A stretch of DNA of 64,000 nt from Cenococcum geophilum 1.58 (lineage: Eukaryota > Ascomycota > Dothideomycetes > Gloniales > Gloniaceae): contig KV748223.1 in assembly GCA_001692895.1 (NCBI GenBank), positions 620,001 through 684,000 of the forward strand, in the 5' to 3' direction. Under the pieces are notes generated by a model. It made no database searches and was not told the origin of the DNA. It saw only the letters and a list, made by a program, of their open reading frames with translations. Below, piece by piece: positions 11,495 to 56,822 of this stretch. Both the position numbers and the translations under genes were made by a program. Each line of letters begins with the position of its first letter. The first letter of the stretch is position 1.

Positions 11495-11636
11495 GAAGTG
11501 TTAGCAAAACGGCGATGGTTGACTTGAGATACTTTCAGGACGAATCCAAGCAGTGTATACTGCATGAAGTGTTAGCAAAACGGCGATGGTTGACTTGAGA
11601 TACTTTCAGGACGAATCCAAGCAGTGTATACTGCAT
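11495..11636. repeat. Tandem duplication, 71 bp x 2 identical copies
   Basis: Copies at 11495-11565 and 11566-11636 start GAAGTGTTAGCAAAACGGCG and end GTATACTGCAT, with no mismatch seen. The repeat lies 245 bp from the 42-bp array in the same gene-free stretch. Confidence 0.97.
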
Positions 11637-43032: not shown

Positions 43033-44053
43033 GTAGTAACTCTTTAATTAACGTCTGATACGGATCCTATCTAGGCCTACGCAGACTACTCCGTCATAGG
43101 GGGAAAACTTATAGTTTACATGAAGAAAACCCTGTAGTTAGGGGAAGGAAAAACCCTATAAGCCACCTCAGTCGGATGAAAAACCCCAAATTGCCATATT
43201 TGCACGTAGTGCGGCCCTGCAGGCCTACAGCTACGTCCTCCTCCTTAGATGTTTTGAACTCCTTGGGAACCACTGCTTCCTTCTCTAGCTTATCTAAAGC
43301 TAGGGTTCACTACGTCCTAGCTAGGCCTTGCTAATTAATTGCCGTACGCTTGTAGTTATGTCCCATATCTTAACCACCCCCTATATACTATCTCTTATTA
43401 ACCATTGCTAATACGCCTTGCCTTCCCCCCCCCTAAGGCCTATCGAAGGCGTAAGGGGGATTCATCCGTTCTACCATCCTAATACCGAAAGACGAAAGCG
43501 GGATGTGTGTGTATATATATCTGGGTATCTTTTATGCCTAGGCCCTAGTCACTAGGCCCTCTCTAAGGGCACCACTCCGTCAAGAGGAGACAAGGAAAAC
43601 CGTACGGGGTTATCCAGCTGCCTTTTAGTAGTATTACGGTAGTACAGTAAGTGACCGCATGCTCCGCGGGCGATTGCCCTAGGGGTTAGGAGGGGCCGTA
43701 TATTTACTCGTTCGTTCGTTCGTTCGCGCTTGTCTATTCATTGATATAAGGTCATCAATGCTTTCTATTGGGGTTTTTTGGGGATGTTATCGAAAACCGC
43801 TCATCCATATTAGATCGTACAGGTGCCCTAGATAGAATAGTGTAGTAGTCGTCGTATTATAGAGGGCTAACAGTAGTGGTTTTCAAGATCTCACCATCCA
43901 AAAAATTTTCACCACCGCCCTTAACGCCCATAACCACCACTAGGTCCTGTCCGCACGCTATGCGACGTCTCTACATTGGCTTTAGATCTGAACTTCAAAG
44001 ACCAGGTTCGTAGCCGTCACCACGTATAGGTGCAGAGTCCGATTTCGACGGCC
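43033..44053 (-). mobile_element. Retroposon copy A, 1.02 kb, inserted in E3
   Basis: The 1021-bp, non-coding, GC-richer unit is flanked by the 15-bp duplication TTTTATAATTATATA (43018-43032 and 44054-44068). It is an inverted copy of 47834-48851. In its own orientation it starts GGCCGTCGAAATCGGA and ends GAGTTACTAC. The first 85 nt can fold as an HDV-like ribozyme. It contains a (TCGT)n run at about 43706-43727 and no open frame of 60 codons. Variable-length duplications of this size suit target-primed reverse transcription, so it looks like a non-autonomous LINE or SINE-like element. Name and class are unknown. Confidence 0.85.
43969..44053 (-). ncRNA. Candidate HDV-like self-cleaving ribozyme (copy A)
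   Basis: Minus-strand fold, 5' end at 44053: P1 GGCCGUC with GACGGCU (7 bp, one G-U); J1/2 of 9 nt; P2 CUCUGC with GUAGAG at the 3' end; P3 ACC/GGU closing the loop UAUACGU; then a P4 hairpin (GGUCU with AGAUC); then a CCAA-containing joining strand before P2. This is the order P1-P2-P3-P1'-P4-P2' of the nested double pseudoknot. The joining-strand C is the presumed catalytic base. The predicted cleavage site is the element boundary. Folded by eye only. Confidence 0.6.
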
Positions 44054-47818: not shown

Positions 47819-47833
47819 TAAATAGCTATTATA

Positions 47834-47919
47834 GGCCGTCGAAAACGGACTCTGCACCTATACGTGGTGATAGCTACAAACCTAAGTCTTTGAAGTTTAG
47901 ACTTAGAGCCAACGCAGAG
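47834..47919 (+). ncRNA. Candidate HDV-like self-cleaving ribozyme (copy B)
   Basis: P1 47834-47840 with 47869-47875; J1/2 47841-47849; P2 47850-47855 (CUCUGC) with 47914-47919 (GCAGAG, perfect); P3 47856-47858 with 47866-47868; L3 UAUACGU; P4 47882-47889 with 47899-47906 (8 perfect pairs); J4/2 AGCCAAC. P1 is weakened here because its 3' strand reads GAUAGCU instead of GACGGCU, a C-to-T plus G-to-A pair as expected from RIP. This copy is probably inactive, but P2 and P4 are better preserved than in copy A. Confidence 0.6.
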
Positions 47920-48851
47920 ACGTCATACAGCGTGTGATACGACCTAGTGGTGGTGGTTATGGGTATTATGGGCGGTGGTAAAAGGTTTTTACATGGGATA
48001 GTGAGATCTCGAAAACCACCACTGAGTGCCCCTTACGATAACAGCAACACTATTCTCCTATTAAGGCACCTATACGATCCAACATAGATGCGCGGCATTC
48101 GATAACATCCCCTGACCCCCAGTAGAGAGCATCAACGACCTCTTACATTAACGAACAAGCGATTGCGAACAAACGAGTAACGAGCAAATATACGGCCCCT
48201 CCTAACCCCCAGGGCGATCGCCCGCGGAGCATGCGGTCACTCGCCATTAACTATTAAATACTACCTAGCAGCCTAGACAACACCGTACGGTTTTCCTGTC
48301 TCCTCTTAAGGAGTAGTAACCCTTGGTAAGGGCCTAGTGACTAGGGCCTAGGTATAAAAGATACTCAGGCACATATATCCCGCTCGCCTTTTAGTATAGT
48401 AGTGGTTTATAGATAAATCCCCCTTACGCCTTTAATAGGCCTTAGGGGGGGGGGAGGCATAGCGTATATAGTAATAGTTAACAAGAGATAGTATATAGGG
48501 GGTGGTTAAAATACGGAACACAACTATAAGTATACAGCAATCGAACGGCAAGGCCTAGCTAGGACGTAGTGAACCCTAGCTAGGATAAGCTAGAGAAGAA
48601 AGCAGTAGTTCCTAAAGAGTTTAAACATCTAAGGAGGACAGGACATAGCCGTAGGCCCGTAGGGCCGCCGCTATGGACGGACATGGCAAATTAGGGTTTT
48701 TTATCCTACTAAGGTGGCTTATAGGGTTTTTCCTCCCCTAACCCAACTACAGGGTTTTCTTCCTATAAATTATAAGTTTTCCCCCTATGACGGAGTAGTC
48801 TGCGTGGGCCTAGATAGGATCCGTATTAGACGTTAATTAAAGAACTACTAC
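47834..48851 (+). mobile_element. Retroposon copy B, 1.02 kb
   Basis: The 1018-bp plus-strand copy of the same family as 43033-44053 is flanked by 15-bp duplications TAAATAGCTATTATA (47819-47833) and TAAATAGCTATTACA (48852-48866), which differ at one C/T position. It starts GGCCGTCGAAAACGGAC and ends AAGAACTACTAC. It has no open frame. The run TTTTCCCCCTATG near its 3' end (48777-48789) also occurs near the 3' end of the LINE at 49816-55042, a hint that both use the same reverse transcriptase. Confidence 0.86.
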
Positions 48852-48866
48852 TAAATAGCTATTACA

Positions 48867-49802
48867 GATTTAAAATCCAGTGCTTATAGGTTTGCGTGAG
48901 AAGCTATACTTATACATAGTGTCCCTTTGTTAATTTTAAGCGATCAATTAAATGGTAAACTACTATAATAATTTATACACTAGTATAAATAGCAATTAAC
49001 TCCTAAATAGGGGGCCTTGCTTACTAATTAGGCACTTAAATAGGACCTATAATGATTTATGCCCTTATATATCTAATTATAAAAAAAATTGTAATCTAAA
49101 TCTTTAATTAAAATAGTAATGCTAAGCCCCTTAGCAAAATATAGGTAATTAGCTATTTTAAATAAAATTTTTGTATAAAATTTTTATTTACGTAATAGAA
49201 AGTATATAAATTAATAGGGTATAACTAAAGTAAATATTAAAATCCTATAACCTTTATAAAAAAGCATAAAGGGAAGTTAATATATAATTAAAATATACCT
49301 AGAATATAAATTAATTTAGAGTTATATTAAGCGTATATATAAACTTAGTCACTATATTAAATGGCTTTAAAATGAAAACTTTTATATTATTACTAAATAA
49401 TTATAAATAGGCATTTGTTATAGAGATAATATTTACTCTAAATTAATTGGTTAAATTCCTTACAGTCTTTAAATAAAAGCACCTTTACTTAGTGTAGTTC
49501 TGCTAGAGCAAAATACTTTATTATATTATATTTAAGTAATTTATTACTATATTCTTGTCTAGAGCTAAATTGTTTAGTAATAAAGCTTAATTGTTAATCT
49601 TTAATAGTTATATAAGCCACTATATAATTAAGTTGGTATTAAAATATAAATAATATAATATATAACTTATTTTTCTACTACTTTATTTAATATAATAACC
49701 CTTAAATCTAGTATACTTTTCTTCTATAAAATTGAAATATTAGGACTAGATTATAAAGTATATATATTTTAATAATATAGCCTTAATTACAAAGCATTAT
49801 AT
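48867..49802. other. very AT-rich degenerate DNA
   Basis: Stop-rich, no gene. Probably an old transposon remnant between copy B and the LINE. Confidence 0.5.
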
Positions 49803-49815
49803 TTTTTAAATATTA

Positions 49816-52800
49816 TTATTATTTGTTCTATTTATTGCCCAATTCGGTCCCTTTTTAGGTCTATGTAGGCTACTACCTATCTATATAGGAAAAAAGTCCC
49901 CATAGGGGGAAAAAACCTAGGTATTTCCTCTTAGCTAGTCTTACGCGCTCCGCCTTCGCCTAGCTAGTATATCCTTGTGTCTTTTAGTCTGCCTTACGTA
50001 CCATACTTCCTAGGTATGTTAGAAGATCTAGGGGGAGGGAGTAGAGGGAGGGTCTGGCGATTTGCTAGTGTGCCGCCTGTGGCTAGGCGGGGGGTAACCA
50101 GTCCTTAAGGGGCTGGAAAGGGGTATATCCTATAGTATCCTCCTATTGGATCTTATGTGCTGTTTAGAACTACTAGAGGATTCCTTATCCTATAAGCTAT
50201 TTTGCTGCTATATATAGGCCCCTACTTATAAAGAGTATCTAGGTAATATTATTTATGCTTACGCTAGCGAGTAGCTAGTCCCTTACTAAGCGGTAACTGC
50301 AGAATAGCAGTATATAGCGTACTAACTAAGCGGGCCATCCGCATGTGTATTAAGGTATAGTATTTAGAATATAGATGCTTATGAGCCATATATTTAGGCC
50401 TAGGACCTCTATCTGTAGTAGGAAGGCGGCTGTAGATTCTGCCTTTGTTAGTCCTTTATATAGGGGGAGAGTTAATATTAACTATGGGGTATTCCATGTG
50501 GCTATATCTTGTGTTTTCGCTACCTCCTTCTATTATTGTTTCTATTTAAGATCTGCCTATCTTACGATTAGCGTGGTAGATCTCTATCTATGCTAGTAGC
50601 CTCCTATCCTCTATCGCCGTTATGGCGCTCTACCGGTATGGCGCTAGGTCTCAGCCTAGTAGGCTAGTAGTTCCCGTATTTCCTTTTCTCTCTCTACCGC
50701 TCGTAGGTAGAGAGCTTCCTAGCTAGTATGCTTAGGCGCGGCTCTCCTTTAAGGGGCCCTTACTCCTTATATAAGTCTCGTTCCTCGTATACATTTTAGC
50801 GTATGGCGTATTTTTTCTTCTACTAGGTGGCCTTATACTGTAACTACTCTCTATATAGCAGTTATATTAATGTATATATCTAGTAGTAGAACAGCCGCTT
50901 CGCGTTCTAGTGCGGCGCGCGGTGTTCTCTTATAGGCTCCTGTAGTTCTACGTAGGCATTAGTTTTAAAGCTTAGCTAGTAGCGCTAGGGAGCTTTTTGC
51001 TAGCACCTTGCCGCCTAATCCTAGGCCCCATACCTAGGAGCCGTATAGCATTGTTAGCCTTATAACTGCTATGTATAGTAGATGTGTAAGTCTAAAAGAG
51101 GGACCCTATATTAAGGTAGTAATCTATAATGCTGCCAAGAGTGCAGCTGCTCCCCTATGGGTCGCCTATGTGATATACTCGTTCTAGTTTAGTTTAGAGT
51201 CTACCTAGACCCCTAGGATCTTAAGGGTAGCTTCTGGTTTTGCTTCGCAGCCCTAGATATTTACTATTAAGGCTAGGTCGTTACCTACCCTTCTTTTCCT
51301 TATAAAGTGGATAAGCTAGTATTTATCTGGTGCAAATTTGGCACTATATTATTTTGCCTATATAATACACCTGTTGTGCGCCTGGTTTAGCCTAGTATAG
51401 TTTTCTACTGCTATATTTCCCTATAAGATTAGGTTTATATTATTAATAAATCCTAGGGCTATTATATCCTGGCTATTATTAAATATCTCTAGTAGTTTGG
51501 ATATAAAGAAGAGGAATAGGATTAGTAAGAGGGGTGATCCCTATAGAATACCTATAGGTGTTGGTATTAACTTGCTTTTGTATCCCTTAATTATAATTTT
51601 TATAGTGCGTCCTGTTAGGAAGGCTTAGATAAACTTAATTATCTAGTTTAGTAGGCCCTTATTTCTTAGGATTTATAGGAGTCTCTTATATAATATGTTA
51701 TTAAAGGCTCCGCTTAGGTCTAGGCTTAGTATAGATACGGTGCATCCTAGGTGCGCTTACTATGCCGCTTAGACGCTAGAGGTAATTAGGGAGAGGGCTA
51801 AAAGGGTTAATTATTTCTTTCTTACGCCTATTTATATCTATGGTAGTAGCTCCTATGCTTCTGCCGCTTCTTATATACGTTCCGTAACTATCTTTTCTAA
51901 AAGCTTTCCTAGGGTGTTTTTTAGGGTAATTGGGCGGTAGCTTCCTAGGAGGGAGTAGTCTTTTTTCTTCGCCTTTTATAAGATAACTGTGGTTATTACT
52001 TTAAAGCATTTGGGTAGTTCGCCTCTCTAGAGACAGGCGGTTGCGGCCTTAGTAAGTAGTATTGCTATCACTTCTGCCGCAGCTTTAATTACCTTATTTA
52101 GGATCTTATCTAGCCCTAGCGCTTTACCGGTAAAGAGCTTTTATATAGCGTCCTTTATTTCTTTTGCTAATATTATATAGCTTATTTCTATAGGAGGGGG
52201 GGGGGTAGTTGGCTACTAATATCCTTAAGGTTTGCTTGACCCGCTCCTAGGAAGAACCTTTCTACTAGTATTTTAATTTTTTCCTTATTATTATTCGTAT
52301 ACTAGTCCTAGCCTAACTAGCGGAGTGTGGGTAGGTAGGGGTCCCCTAGCGTCTCTTTAGCGGCTCGCCTACTCCACTTTAATATGCGCCAAAGTCCTTT
52401 ATTATATAGTTTGGTAGAGTTTATAGTAATTTCTTCTAAAAATCGGCGCCAGTTATTTCTGCCCTCTTTCTGTATTATCTTCTTAAGCCTATTTTTTAGG
52501 GCCTTAAAGCTTTATTAGTAGTGGGCTTCGCCTATTATAGTATACTGTCGCCTTACCCTCCTTGCGCCTGTAAGTAGCTGGGCTACCTCTAGCAACTATT
52601 CGCGGTGGGCGTGTTTGCTAGGTTTGGCTTTTAGGTAGTATTCTTCTAGGCAGTTGCCTATAGTCCTCTAGATATCTTCTAGCGATGCTTAAGGTATTAC
52701 TGCTAGCCTATTAGTGATTTCCTGGGTATATTTTTCCTAGTTAAGTTTCTTAGTGGCGTATCTCTAGTAGGTTTGTTATACTAGTGCGGTAACGTTAAGC

Positions 52801-55042
52801 GCTATCTATATAGGTATATAGTCTGCGGTAATTACCTATATGTCTTCTAGTCCGCAGAACTTTAGTCGGTTTACGAGTGATTCTTATATAAATGTAAGGT
52901 TAATTGTGCTTTCTTAGGTTCCTCTTTTCCAGGTAGGTTCGCCGGTTAGGGTGGTTAGGGTAAGGCCCCGCGTTTCTAGCTCGTTTAGTAGGTGGGCTAC
53001 CTATGCTTTAGTTGTAGCCTGCTGCCCGCCCTATGATATATAGTGTGTGTTAAAGTCCCCTAGGACTATTACCTCGCCTTCTATTGTGTTAATAGCCTAT
53101 TGAAGTAGTTCCTATATAGCGATTTGGGGCTTATTGTTACTTAGGTTATACATGTTAATTATACTAATTTAGCCCCTATTAGTAGCTAGTTATAATTTAT
53201 TAATATTATAGCTGATATTGTGGTAGCTCTATGCCTATATATTAATATATTAGCTAACTAGGAAGCATATATAAGTAGCCGGGTTTGGTTTATATAGGAG
53301 GTAGTATCCTTTTAGTTAGTATATTTTGCGTATCTACTTATTATATACTAGTTTCTATAGGGCGATTATCTAATACTTTTCTGGGTTTAGGCTATTAAAT
53401 AGGGGACGAGTTGCTCTATAGTTTAAGTATCCGCAGTTATATTATACTATTATTAGTCTATTTATAGTGTTGGTTAGTTTAGTGGCTTATAGGTGTCTTC
53501 CGTTCGCCTCTAGGGTGTCTTGGTTAAGGGTGTTGCGATTAGGATTCTTTGCTAGGATGGGTTTCTGGCGGCGTTGGTGCTGCCTTACGGGCGTCCCACG
53601 CTCTGCTTTGCCGCTGGTTGGGCAGAGGGTGCCCCTATTGGGGTGGGTACCCTAGATCTCTTTCTTTATGCGACTATTTAGCCGCCGTTGCCTATTATGC
53701 TTAGCTCCTTCTCCTTATATGCGTTTCCCCGTAGCGTGGCTATAACCTAGTATAGTTGGGTTTGTCTTATCTTAGTAGATTCTAAGTACACCTAGAAGGT
53801 CTTATATGCCGTCTTCTGCTATACTTTATGTTCTTTACCGTAGTTTACGTATCTAACTCCCTTGTTCCTAGGGCAGTCCTTTATCTCGTGTGTATTGGCG
53901 CACCATCTATACCTCTCCTATCTCCCGCATGCGCTCTAGGTGTAGCCCTACTATTAGCATCTAAAGTATTAGCGGATTTGGACTGCGCTATAGTATAGCC
54001 GGGCTTCGTACTAAAGGCTATCTATAACTATTCCTTTGCATACTACTGCCGCCTACATCTCCTAAGTTGGTAGGTTAATTATTAGGGTACTACGTGTTTT
54101 AACTTTTTAGAACCTTGGTAATACCCCTATATATATAGTGCGCACTCTATAGCGCTATGCGACTCTAGATATTATAATACCTAGGACTAGTCTTCTAGTG
54201 GCCTCTGTAATCTTTTAGATAAGTTATAAGTTTATAGCGCCTTACCCGCTTTCTACTTATATATTAAGGGGTACTCTAATTACTTCCACCGGGAAGTCCT
54301 AGCGGAGGATCTTGTACTTAGGGGTGTCTCCCTAGGTAATGGCCTAGTCCTTTGCCTATTAGTTAGGGAGTATAACCTCTATGTTGCCGCTATACAGGAC
54401 CTTTACTGCCACTGCCTTTAGTATATGTGCTCTAATTAATGTAAGGAGCTGTTTTGGCTTTGCTCCTATTGCCTCTAGTATTTGGATTCTAAGTGTGGAC
54501 CTTACCGGTGCTATACTAGGGAGGCGCTGGAGAGGCGCCGGTTAGGCGCTGGTGGCAACGTTGGCCTATAAGGGCTTTGTTGTGTGCGTTGTTGGTATAC
54601 CCTATGATTTTATAGCATCCTTAATGCGGCTAAGCCTATCCTCTATGGCGTTCTGGTTCCTATTGTGCCTTGTCCATAGCTCCTATACGATTTGTCCTGC
54701 CTATTAAGCCGCACGCGCTACCCCTATGCGTGGGTATTTATCTTCTCCCTTCCCTAGATCTTCCTCAATGTCTTTTAGGATATCTATAAGTTTTTGCCAT
54801 TTCTGGTCGTTGTCCTTTGGCTGTTGTGGTTGGGTCGCCCCCTGGTGGGTTTATTGTGGTGTCGCGTTTTTCTGTGTCGACCCACCTTTGAGTCTGCTGC
54901 GACCCTCCTGGGTCGCACAGGCTTTCCAGCTGTGATGCGTACATTCGCTCTAGGGCATATTATGCCGTAGATTTGATTGGGAGTGGGTATTTCTTTATTG
55001 GGTAAGTGGTGGGCGTGTTCTGCTGCTGTAGCGGCTCCTTTA
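49816..55042 (-). mobile_element. Tad-like LINE (non-LTR retrotransposon), near full length, degraded
   Basis: The 5.2-kb element reads on the minus strand between 13-bp duplications TTTTTAAATATTA (49803-49815 and 55043-55055). The 3' end (low coordinates) is an (ATA)n-type tail. ORF1-like sequence is at about 53.7-54.95 kb (MYASQLESLCDPG near the start; CANTHEIKDCPRNKG zinc-knuckle-like). The AP endonuclease is at about 52.9-53.4 kb (VIVLGDFNTHY). The reverse transcriptase is at about 51.0-52.2 kb (PTPIGIL, then GSPLLLILFLFFISKLLEIF, then FINNINL in the active-site position). Stops interrupt every domain. Left of 51 kb the expected RNase H region is too degraded to read. Confidence 0.87.
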
Positions 55043-55425: not shown

Positions 55426-55642
55426 TAAGGGCTTTATATTTTTATAGGCCAAAAATAAGGCTTTAATAAAGGCTTAAGGCCTTAAATAGGCTAATAGTAA
55501 TTAGCTTAACATTACAGATACCCTAAAAAAGCCTTATTATATATATTTAGTAGTTTAAAGCCTTTGCAACAAGTATATACTTAATTAAAAGATTTAACTA
55601 CTTTTATAAAAAGTAAGTCAATAACTTAAGCAACTTACTATA

Positions 55643-56066
55643 ACGTGTTCTACCAGTCAGTGGGACACCCTAGTCAGTGGGACACCCCAAAAACCACCAA
55701 AAATCGGAAAAACTGCACCTTAATATCTTGATAACGGCTTAATAATAAATTCCGAAATTTTATAATTAGCCTTTTATACTTATTTTAAACCTCTTATTAG
55801 ATTTAAAAAGTATTCTATTAAATAGCTCTAAAGATATTATAATTTAGCTTAAGATTAGGGGCNAAAACCTAATATTTTAATAACGGCTAGGCTTATTACG
55901 CTAGAATTTTATTAAGAGTCTTAATATAGGTATAAAAGGCTAATTATAAAATTTCGGAATTTATTATTAAGCCGTTGTCAAGATATTAAGGTGCAGTTTT
56001 TCCGATTTTTAGTGGTTTTTGGGGTGTCCCACTAACTAGGGTGTCCCACTGACTAGTAGAATACGT
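55643..56066. mobile_element. MITE 2, 424 bp, arms of about 145 bp
   Basis: A near-perfect inverted repeat: left arm 55643 to about 55785, right arm about 55925 to 56066, with a spacer of about 135 bp. Each arm starts ACGTRTTCTACYAGTCAGTG and holds the doublet AGTCAGTGGGACACCC. TA flanks both sides (55641-55642, 56067-56068). It is non-coding, and arm differences are mainly C/T or G/A. One ambiguous base is at 55863. Confidence 0.8.
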
Positions 56067-56068
56067 TA

Positions 56069-56822
56069 AAGGCTATATATAAGATTACTTAAATATATTA
56101 CTTATAATCAAAGATTAAGGACCTTAAAAGCCTAAGATTTTATAGGTAGGTAGCTATAGATTTAAATATATAATTTATAAATATAGATTTAATCAAGTAA
56201 GTAATAGAGAATATAAAGGGGGAAAAGGCTAAAATAGGGGTAAAGGAGCTAAAATCGAGACTTTTAAAGGTGATAGATTGAAAGGCTAAGGCCGATATAT
56301 TAAATAGCACATAAGGGTAAATAATTATTTTAATTTGGTTAGGTATGGTTAGCTTCTAAAGTGGTAGTAATCAATTTAGTAGAGTAGGGTTAACTAAGTT
56401 CCGGGGGTCCGAGCTTAAAGATAAAAGTAAGCTAAGGCCCTATACGTTAAATCCTATACTAAAAGGTTTTATAAAACTATACTAAGGAATACTAAATTGC
56501 CTATAATACTTATAATTAATTATAGACTAGTATAAAGGCTTAGAAATAGAGTTGTATAAAAATCCTTAAGTTAACCTAGGTAGTTACTAGTATACTTCTA
56601 ATAGGCTTTTAATAGGTCTCCTAGTAATCCTTATATCTTTTCTTTAGTTATATTTTTTCCTTATTAAGGTTTTTAGGAGTTTAAAGTAGGGGTTAAATAG
56701 ATAGATAATATATAACGGCATACTAATATCTCTTTAAACCCCTTCTGGGATAAGCCCTTATAATCTCCCTCTACCGTAAGGTAATGGCGATTAGGGGCCG
56801 ACCGTAAGAAGGGGGGGGGTAA
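56069..56822 (+). mobile_element. Degenerate internal part of an LTR retrotransposon, 5' end missing
   Basis: Stop-rich sequence ends in a polypurine tract (AAGAAGGGGGGGGGTAA) directly before the LTR at 56823, so it belongs to a plus-strand LTR element. The 5' LTR is not found in the window. Superfamily not determined. Confidence 0.6.

Follow-up and report, generated by a model that had tools for sequence, protein, structure and literature searches.

A probable HDV-like ribozyme, damaged in the copy at hand, at the 5' end of a short non-LTR retroposon of Cenococcum geophilum

Ribozymes resembling that of the hepatitis delta virus (HDV) have been described on short retrotransposons without long terminal repeats (non-LTR elements) in trypanosomatids (PMC4035085) and in R2 elements (PMC3774820, PMC3414825). 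In trypanosomatids the short non-LTR elements NARTc, RIME and SIDER, which are non-autonomous, bear an HDV-like ribozyme, L1TcRz (Pr77), at the 5' end, and the ribozymes of several such elements cleave in vitro (PMC4035085). R2 (PMC3774820) and R2 SIDE (PMC3414825) provide a second case: the ribozyme lies at the 5' junction or close to it, microhomologies occur at such junctions, and some versions are non-autonomous. In fungi, Li and Breaker (2017) reported 230 representatives of a variant HDV type from 26 species, in addition to 11 earlier ones, and two of the variants, from Penicillium and Aspergillus, were shown to cleave; the words 'retrotransposon' and 'repeat' are absent from the main text of that paper (PMC5640933). 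An HDV-like ribozyme of a cold-tolerant fungus is also mentioned in PMC3774820, citing Webb and Luptak (2011). Here we analyse a stretch of 64,000 nucleotides from the ascomycete Cenococcum geophilum 1.58 (contig KV748223.1, positions 620,001 to 684,000, forward strand; hereafter the window), which contains two copies, A and B, of a retroposon of about 1.02 kb without an open reading frame. We find that copy B starts with what we take, with a probability of about 0.83, to be an HDV-like self-cleaving ribozyme in a damaged state, forming the 5' end of a non-autonomous non-LTR retroposon that resembles a short interspersed nuclear element (SINE).

The two copies and the parts of their predicted folds are placed in the window as follows.

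47819..47833, + strand: 5' target-site duplication of copy B, 15 bp, with 1 mismatch to the 3' copy
47834..48851, + strand: retroposon copy B, 1018 bp, longest stop-to-stop frame 57 aa, 3' end ..AAAGAACTACTAC
48852..48866, + strand: 3' target-site duplication of copy B
47834..47919, + strand: predicted HDV-like ribozyme fold of copy B; the first base of the fold is the first base of the element
47834..47840, + strand: P1 5' strand, GGCCGUC; predicted cleavage immediately 5' of 47834
47850..47855, + strand: P2 5' strand, CUCUGC
47856..47868, + strand: P3 ACC/GGU with L3 UAUACGU (47859-47865), of which bases 2-3 take part in P1.1
47869..47875, + strand: P1 3' strand, GAUAGCU, with RIP-type changes (see below); GACGGCU in copy A
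47876..47877, + strand: P1.1 3' strand, AC; the U-A pair is retained and the other is an A.C mismatch in copy B
47882..47906, + strand: P4, CUAAGUCU/AGACUUAG, 8 bp
47907..47913, + strand: J4/2, AGCCAAC, with C 47909 as the expected catalytic cytosine
47914..47919, + strand: P2 3' strand, GCAGAG
43033..44053, - strand: retroposon copy A, with 15-bp target duplications at both sides and its first base at 44053
43969..44053, - strand: HDV-like fold of copy A, with a full P1 and a damaged P4

In copy B, 47833 is the last base of the 5' target duplication, and both the element and the fold start at 47834, in agreement with the initial annotation, which had placed the fold exactly at the element's first base. 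All the helices it had named, P1, P2, P3 and P4, together with a J4/2 strand containing CCAA, are found where it put them, in the nested double pseudoknot order P1-P2-P3-P3'-P1'-P4-P4'-P2'. The P1 of copy B (GGCCGUC/GAUAGCU) pairs at 6 of 7 positions, with one C.A mismatch and otherwise standard pairs including wobbles, whereas in copy A, which lies inverted relative to copy B, all 7 pairs form (GGCCGUC/GACGGCU); the C-to-T and G-to-A changes earlier ascribed to the P1 of copy B, and said to be missing from copy A, are thus borne out. Copy B had also been described as having the better P2 and P4. This is true of its P4, whose counterpart in copy A is damaged by a 1-nt deletion and transitions, but the fold of copy B is not the better one as a whole, given the damage to its P1 and P1.1. 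The latter, which consists of L3 bases 2-3 paired with the two bases 3' of P1' and has A.C as its second pair in both copies, is an addition to the earlier list of helices and was not used to find the element. With these two lesions, copy B is likely to have little or no ribozyme activity. A catalytic role for C 47909 would follow from its position in an alignment with the HDV consensus. Between copies A and B, transitions make up 137 of the 187 substitutions and 27 of the 69 C/T changes precede an unchanged A, a bias that points to repeat-induced point mutation (RIP) as the process that would have degraded the copies, A and B among them.

First-look searches of the 177-Mb genome yielded 645 candidates with the 5' end and 780 with the 3' end of the element as query, and 40 of each were scored. 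A 25-nt pattern of the ribozyme core has 287 matches in the genome and a pattern specific to a second subfamily has 30, with no genome match to the reversed version of either. Four of the fetched loci were duplicate records (L032 of L001, L033 of L009, L047 of L041 and L069 of L036) and counts are given on distinct elements, the distinct set comprising 67 copies with A and B included. Both ends of the element are present in 66 of 70 loci, corresponding to 62 of 66 distinct elements; the ribozyme-headed loci without both ends are L015, which is split by about 1.3 kb, and L046, L060 and L063, where the similarity ends after 215-576 nt. A target duplication of at least 11 nt with a free edge was detected in 64 of the 67 distinct copies, its edge falling at base 1 in 41 of them, 1-4 nt inside the element in another 18 and at other positions in 5, so that 59 of 64 lie within 0-4 nt of the first base, which upholds beyond copy B the claim that the fold begins where the element does. 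As a control, the same scan at an interior point of the element succeeds in 1 of 67 copies. The +1 and +2 edges are mostly a G or GG common to the 3' flank, which resembles 5'-junction microhomology. R2 targets 28S rRNA genes, whereas here the duplications and the flanking sequences vary from copy to copy. Furthermore, in a 3'-anchored sample, 10 of 10 element loci (copy B included) extend to within 6 nt of the 5' end and 5 of 8 loci of long interspersed nuclear elements (LINEs) stop, with a duplication, within about 0.33 kb; this suggests that full-length copying of the element is efficient, a comparison limited by the element's shortness.

We then considered how rare such a fold is. A strict descriptor was defined by a P1 with at most 1 non-pair, a short J1/2, a P2 of at least 5, a P3 with a 7-nt loop, a P4 of at least 5, GCNAA and at most 3 G.U pairs; it was written post hoc, once the fold was known, and its figures express rarity rather than the outcome of a blind test. 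On both strands of the window it has a single match, at 47834, with copy A failing it as well as a relaxed version, and among the distinct copies it is passed at base 1 by 40 of 67. When a single strand of random Markov sequence was scanned, 12.8 Mb modelled on the window contained 15 start sites and 12.2 Mb modelled on the element contained 5, a background of 0.4-1.2 per Mb. The coincidence of the start with the duplication edge is evidence independent of the descriptor. A loose descriptor, which matches dozens of times throughout the window, was dropped as a test. The covariance-model check that had been proposed gave a mixed result: in searches with E up to 10, copy A matches HDV-F-prausnitzii (RF02682) in the right register at 16.4 bits (E 3.8), and nothing rises above the cut-off, the gathering score of that family being 44.

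Upon comparing the copies, we observe that the fold is conserved. The first pair of P1.1 is U-A and the motif GCNAA stands in J4/2, preceding P2', in 67 of 67 distinct copies. The other P1.1 pair varies: it is G-C in 31, G-U in 3, A-U in 2 and A.C in 31, so both pairs are standard in 36 of 67; 34 of these 36 have G as the second base of L3, and a change of that base from G to A, if this was its direction, is the one that RIP would make. P3 has 3 bp. In the aligned copies L3 begins with U and its sixth base is G, L035 being the exception with a G-to-A change at that base; a conserved G and U of L3 are described in PMC3774820. P1 is complete, with all 7 pairs, in 25 of 67 copies, which all belong to the 36 that keep C3-G40, and has at most 6 of 7 pairs in the second subfamily. 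Its pair 5 is G-C in 31 of 67 copies and C-G in 31 of 67, a double transversion, and therefore a swap that RIP cannot produce. P4 occurs in alternative forms, namely CUGCUG..CAGCAG, CUACUG..CAGUAG, CUAAGUCU..AGACUUAG, CUGAGU..ACUCAG and CUGG..CUAG, and since it is rebuilt with other sequences between subfamilies, RIP cannot account for its changes; folded alone, it closes fully in most of 68 records, with the outer three pairs open in ten. Across all subfamilies (39 distinct 48-nt sequences), cells with changes on both sides number 19, where shuffles give 10.0, and the covariation score of 0.128 compares with 0.090 in shuffles; none of 500 shuffles attains either value, and slid controls give at most 2 and 0.091. 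Covariation, which had been named as a check on the helices, is thus above shuffles between subfamilies by these two measures, with the signal deriving mainly from P1 pair 5.

Compared with known families, the element follows the helix order of both RF02682 and RF00094 (HDV_ribozyme), yet reaches the gathering score of neither. Further resemblances are AAC before P4, GCNAA in J4/2 and an L3 of U[A/G]UACGU as against UCUACGU in RF02682. In the fungal type of Li and Breaker (PMC5640933) the cleavage site is C-G, one additional nucleotide separates P2 from P3, and P4 carries a loop E, whereas here the corresponding pair is G.U in 64 of 67 copies and A-U in 3 of 67, P2 abuts P3 and P4 is a plain hairpin. 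A separate, single-copy locus of different sequence (L031 1501-1576, minus strand; G000:C81:661519-661594) holds a complete HDV-like fold, with P1 CCUGCCC/GGGCGGG, two P1.1 pairs, a P4 of 7 bp and GCUAAC in J4/2; it scores 33.6 bits with RF00094 and 28.9 bits with RF02682, both under gathering, and it matches the fungal type in its C-G cleavage site and in the extra nucleotide between P2 and P3 (PMC5640933).

Taken together, the precision of the boundary, the rarity of the descriptor match, P1.1, the changes between subfamilies and the in-register match of copy A support the HDV-like reading, and we consider the intact copies very probably to encode a self-cleaving ribozyme, as judged from their sequences. 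Several results weigh against this. At base 1, 27 of 67 copies fail the strict descriptor, and a P1 shifted by one base is possible in 13 of 67, 11 of which also have the base-1 fold. No Rfam family reaches gathering level in the window, copy B and one second-subfamily copy match no HDV family in Rfam with E up to 10, and over the whole genome RF00094 has no match and RF02682 only the unrelated single-copy locus L031, below the cut-off, the element being left unmatched. None of the 31 second-subfamily copies can form pair 3 of P1, 30 having U.C there and 1 having C.C, and for other HDV-like ribozymes a lack of activity has been put down, as a hypothesis, to mismatches in P1 (PMC3774820). In the main set of 31 sequences covariation equals that of shuffles, with 2 pairs showing changes on both sides where 1.9 would be expected, and is for that reason not used as support. 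Two of five measures are also null in the 39-sequence set, with 3 pairs changed on both sides against 2.9 in shuffles and 8 further pair types against 8.5. The pair-5 swap is a single evolutionary event inherited by many copies, and inverted repeats can acquire apparent covariation through RIP, which acts on CpA in either strand. Additionally, the minimum-energy fold from ViennaRNA, in which no pseudoknots are possible, pairs the P1 5' strand with J1/2.

This hairpin of the P1 5' strand with J1/2 reads CCGU/ACGG in copy B (window 47834-47850) and GUCC/GGAC in L058, a copy of the second subfamily, where the odd U3 thereby gains a partner; it is a possible competing or post-cleavage hairpin.

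As to its class, the element fits a non-LTR, SINE-like retroposon, with variable target duplications, a short 3' repeat and no coding capacity. A simple regular-expression search for RNA polymerase III (pol III) boxes in two copies returned A-box-like strings, with no B box in copy B and one weak B-box-like string at 792 in the second-subfamily copy; a classical SINE with an internal pol III promoter was set aside, as convincing A and B boxes are lacking in these two copies. Searching for LINEs by their endonuclease (EN) gave 396 candidates, of which 150 were scored. One LINE at C101 (L086 2130-8007) looks full-length, with an EN match, a reverse transcriptase (RT) 91% identical to that of its family and a 16-bp duplication, its long frames being interrupted by at least 2 in-frame stops. 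Its 3' end resembles that of the element, at 71% over 99 nt (E 9e-9) and 81% over 62 nt (E 3e-9). A query with a similar (TTA)n-tailed 3' end finds this LINE family, with 1517 first-look candidates, and a 5'-truncated copy from it has an RT 55% identical to that of a further LINE, L072. A 3' end common to the element and the L072 LINE, suggested by visual similarity, was rejected, as its score of 47 lies below the 51 reached by 20 shuffled queries against L074, and the argument for a partner therefore uses only the L086/L078 LINE family. The LINEs at C50 (L074) and C7 (L075) show no match to the element. In the window, a degraded LINE lies at about 49800-53168 on the minus strand, with an EN match at 52866-53168 and a 3' end (49800-49894) that resembles the L072 LINE.

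Among other explanations, the strongest is descent by internal deletion from a LINE with a ribozyme at its 5' end, the ribozyme being inherited from the parent and not added to a LINE tail. We regard this as a serious possibility, although short of an even chance: the route is documented in trypanosomatids, where NARTc derives from L1Tc (PMC4035085), and in R2 SIDEs (PMC3414825), and the genome has many LINE copies, of which the 5' end was seen for two. These two, L086 and L072, both have duplications and one is 3'-similar, yet neither has an HDV fold at its 5' end, even with the relaxed descriptor, and both termini of the short element are found in 66 of 70 element loci. The comparison with trypanosomatids differs accordingly, since here the LINE that shares its 3' end is without an HDV fold at the single 5' end seen, and the kingdom is a different one.

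A second explanation, which we consider improbable, is that the 5' structure is kept for a role other than cleavage, such as a promoter, a template-jump signal for RT or protection of the RNA 5' end. The trypanosomatid Pr77 has promoter activity and contains the ribozyme (PMC8190864, PMC4748587, PMC4035085), a P1 mismatch is tolerated in the second subfamily and the competing hairpin is predicted in copies of both subfamilies; a promoter or jump signal, however, needs no combination of pseudoknot, P1.1, GCNAA and a P1 at base 1. It is very unlikely that an AT-rich repeat merely happens to permit these helices: loose descriptors do give many such folds in the window and the strict one is post hoc, but the latter meets only 0.4-1.2 matches per Mb of random sequence, the start coincides with the duplication edge, P1.1 played no part in the discovery and P4 re-forms in other subfamilies. 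Least credible is a retrozyme-like element replicating through RNA circles from tandem ribozyme-bearing units, for although plants and animals have non-autonomous retroelements with self-cleaving ribozymes and circular RNAs (PMC7761336), the units here are single, about 1 kb long, flanked by target duplications on both sides and provided with a LINE-type 3' end.

Returning to an HDV-like ribozyme at the element's head, its role is probably to free the element RNA from host transcripts before copying by the enzyme of another element. The element would be transcribed from an upstream host promoter within a longer RNA, in which the double pseudoknot, a fold compatible with the sequence, would form and the J4/2 cytosine would help to cut 5' of the first G of P1, releasing an RNA whose 5' end is base 1. 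A LINE similar to the element at its 3' end would supply the RT, which would prime on the 3' tail and copy the RNA to its first base, a step proposed because of the 3' similarity, the target duplications and the short 3' repeats. The insertion would then end at G1 beside the target duplication, consistent with the 59 of 64 duplications that end 0-4 nt from it, and RIP would afterwards degrade the copies, as suggested by the transition bias and by C/T changes falling most often before A. More tentatively, and with clearly less than even confidence, we propose a promoterless chimeric SINE, in which an acquired ribozyme head replaces the pol III promoter, the tail is LINE-like and the mover is a LINE without a ribozyme, so that the element would spread purely by riding host transcripts and excising itself, with the hairpin of the P1 strand and J1/2 as a possible switch.

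Elsewhere in the window, an exact 71-bp tandem duplication lies at 11495-11636, and an inverted repeat at 55638-56071 has 167-nt arms, 92% complementary, spaced by 100 nt. Among named matches to Rrn6, those of Saccharata, Macrophomina and Diplodia rank highest, at 42-46% identity, with Blastomyces, Rachicladosporium and Penicillium at 32-36%, in line with a member of the Dothideomycetes.

The initial annotation had held that a ribozyme on a short non-coding element of a fungus would extend what is known. The part concerning the combination stands, in that no fungal retroposon with an HDV-like ribozyme appears, by title and start of abstract, among the literature matches listed; HDV ribozymes as such were already known in fungi, and we do not claim priority. 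The possibility that RIP mimics covariation in inverted repeats is a caution for claims of RNA structure in fungal repeats. The finding would put HDV-like ribozymes on fungal retroposons, and the hundreds of copies, graded by RIP-type damage, offer a natural series for comparing ribozyme integrity, 5' junction and copy success. If the LINE partner is truly without a ribozyme, a self-cutting head would be joinable to a LINE tail, giving a mobile element without a promoter of its own.
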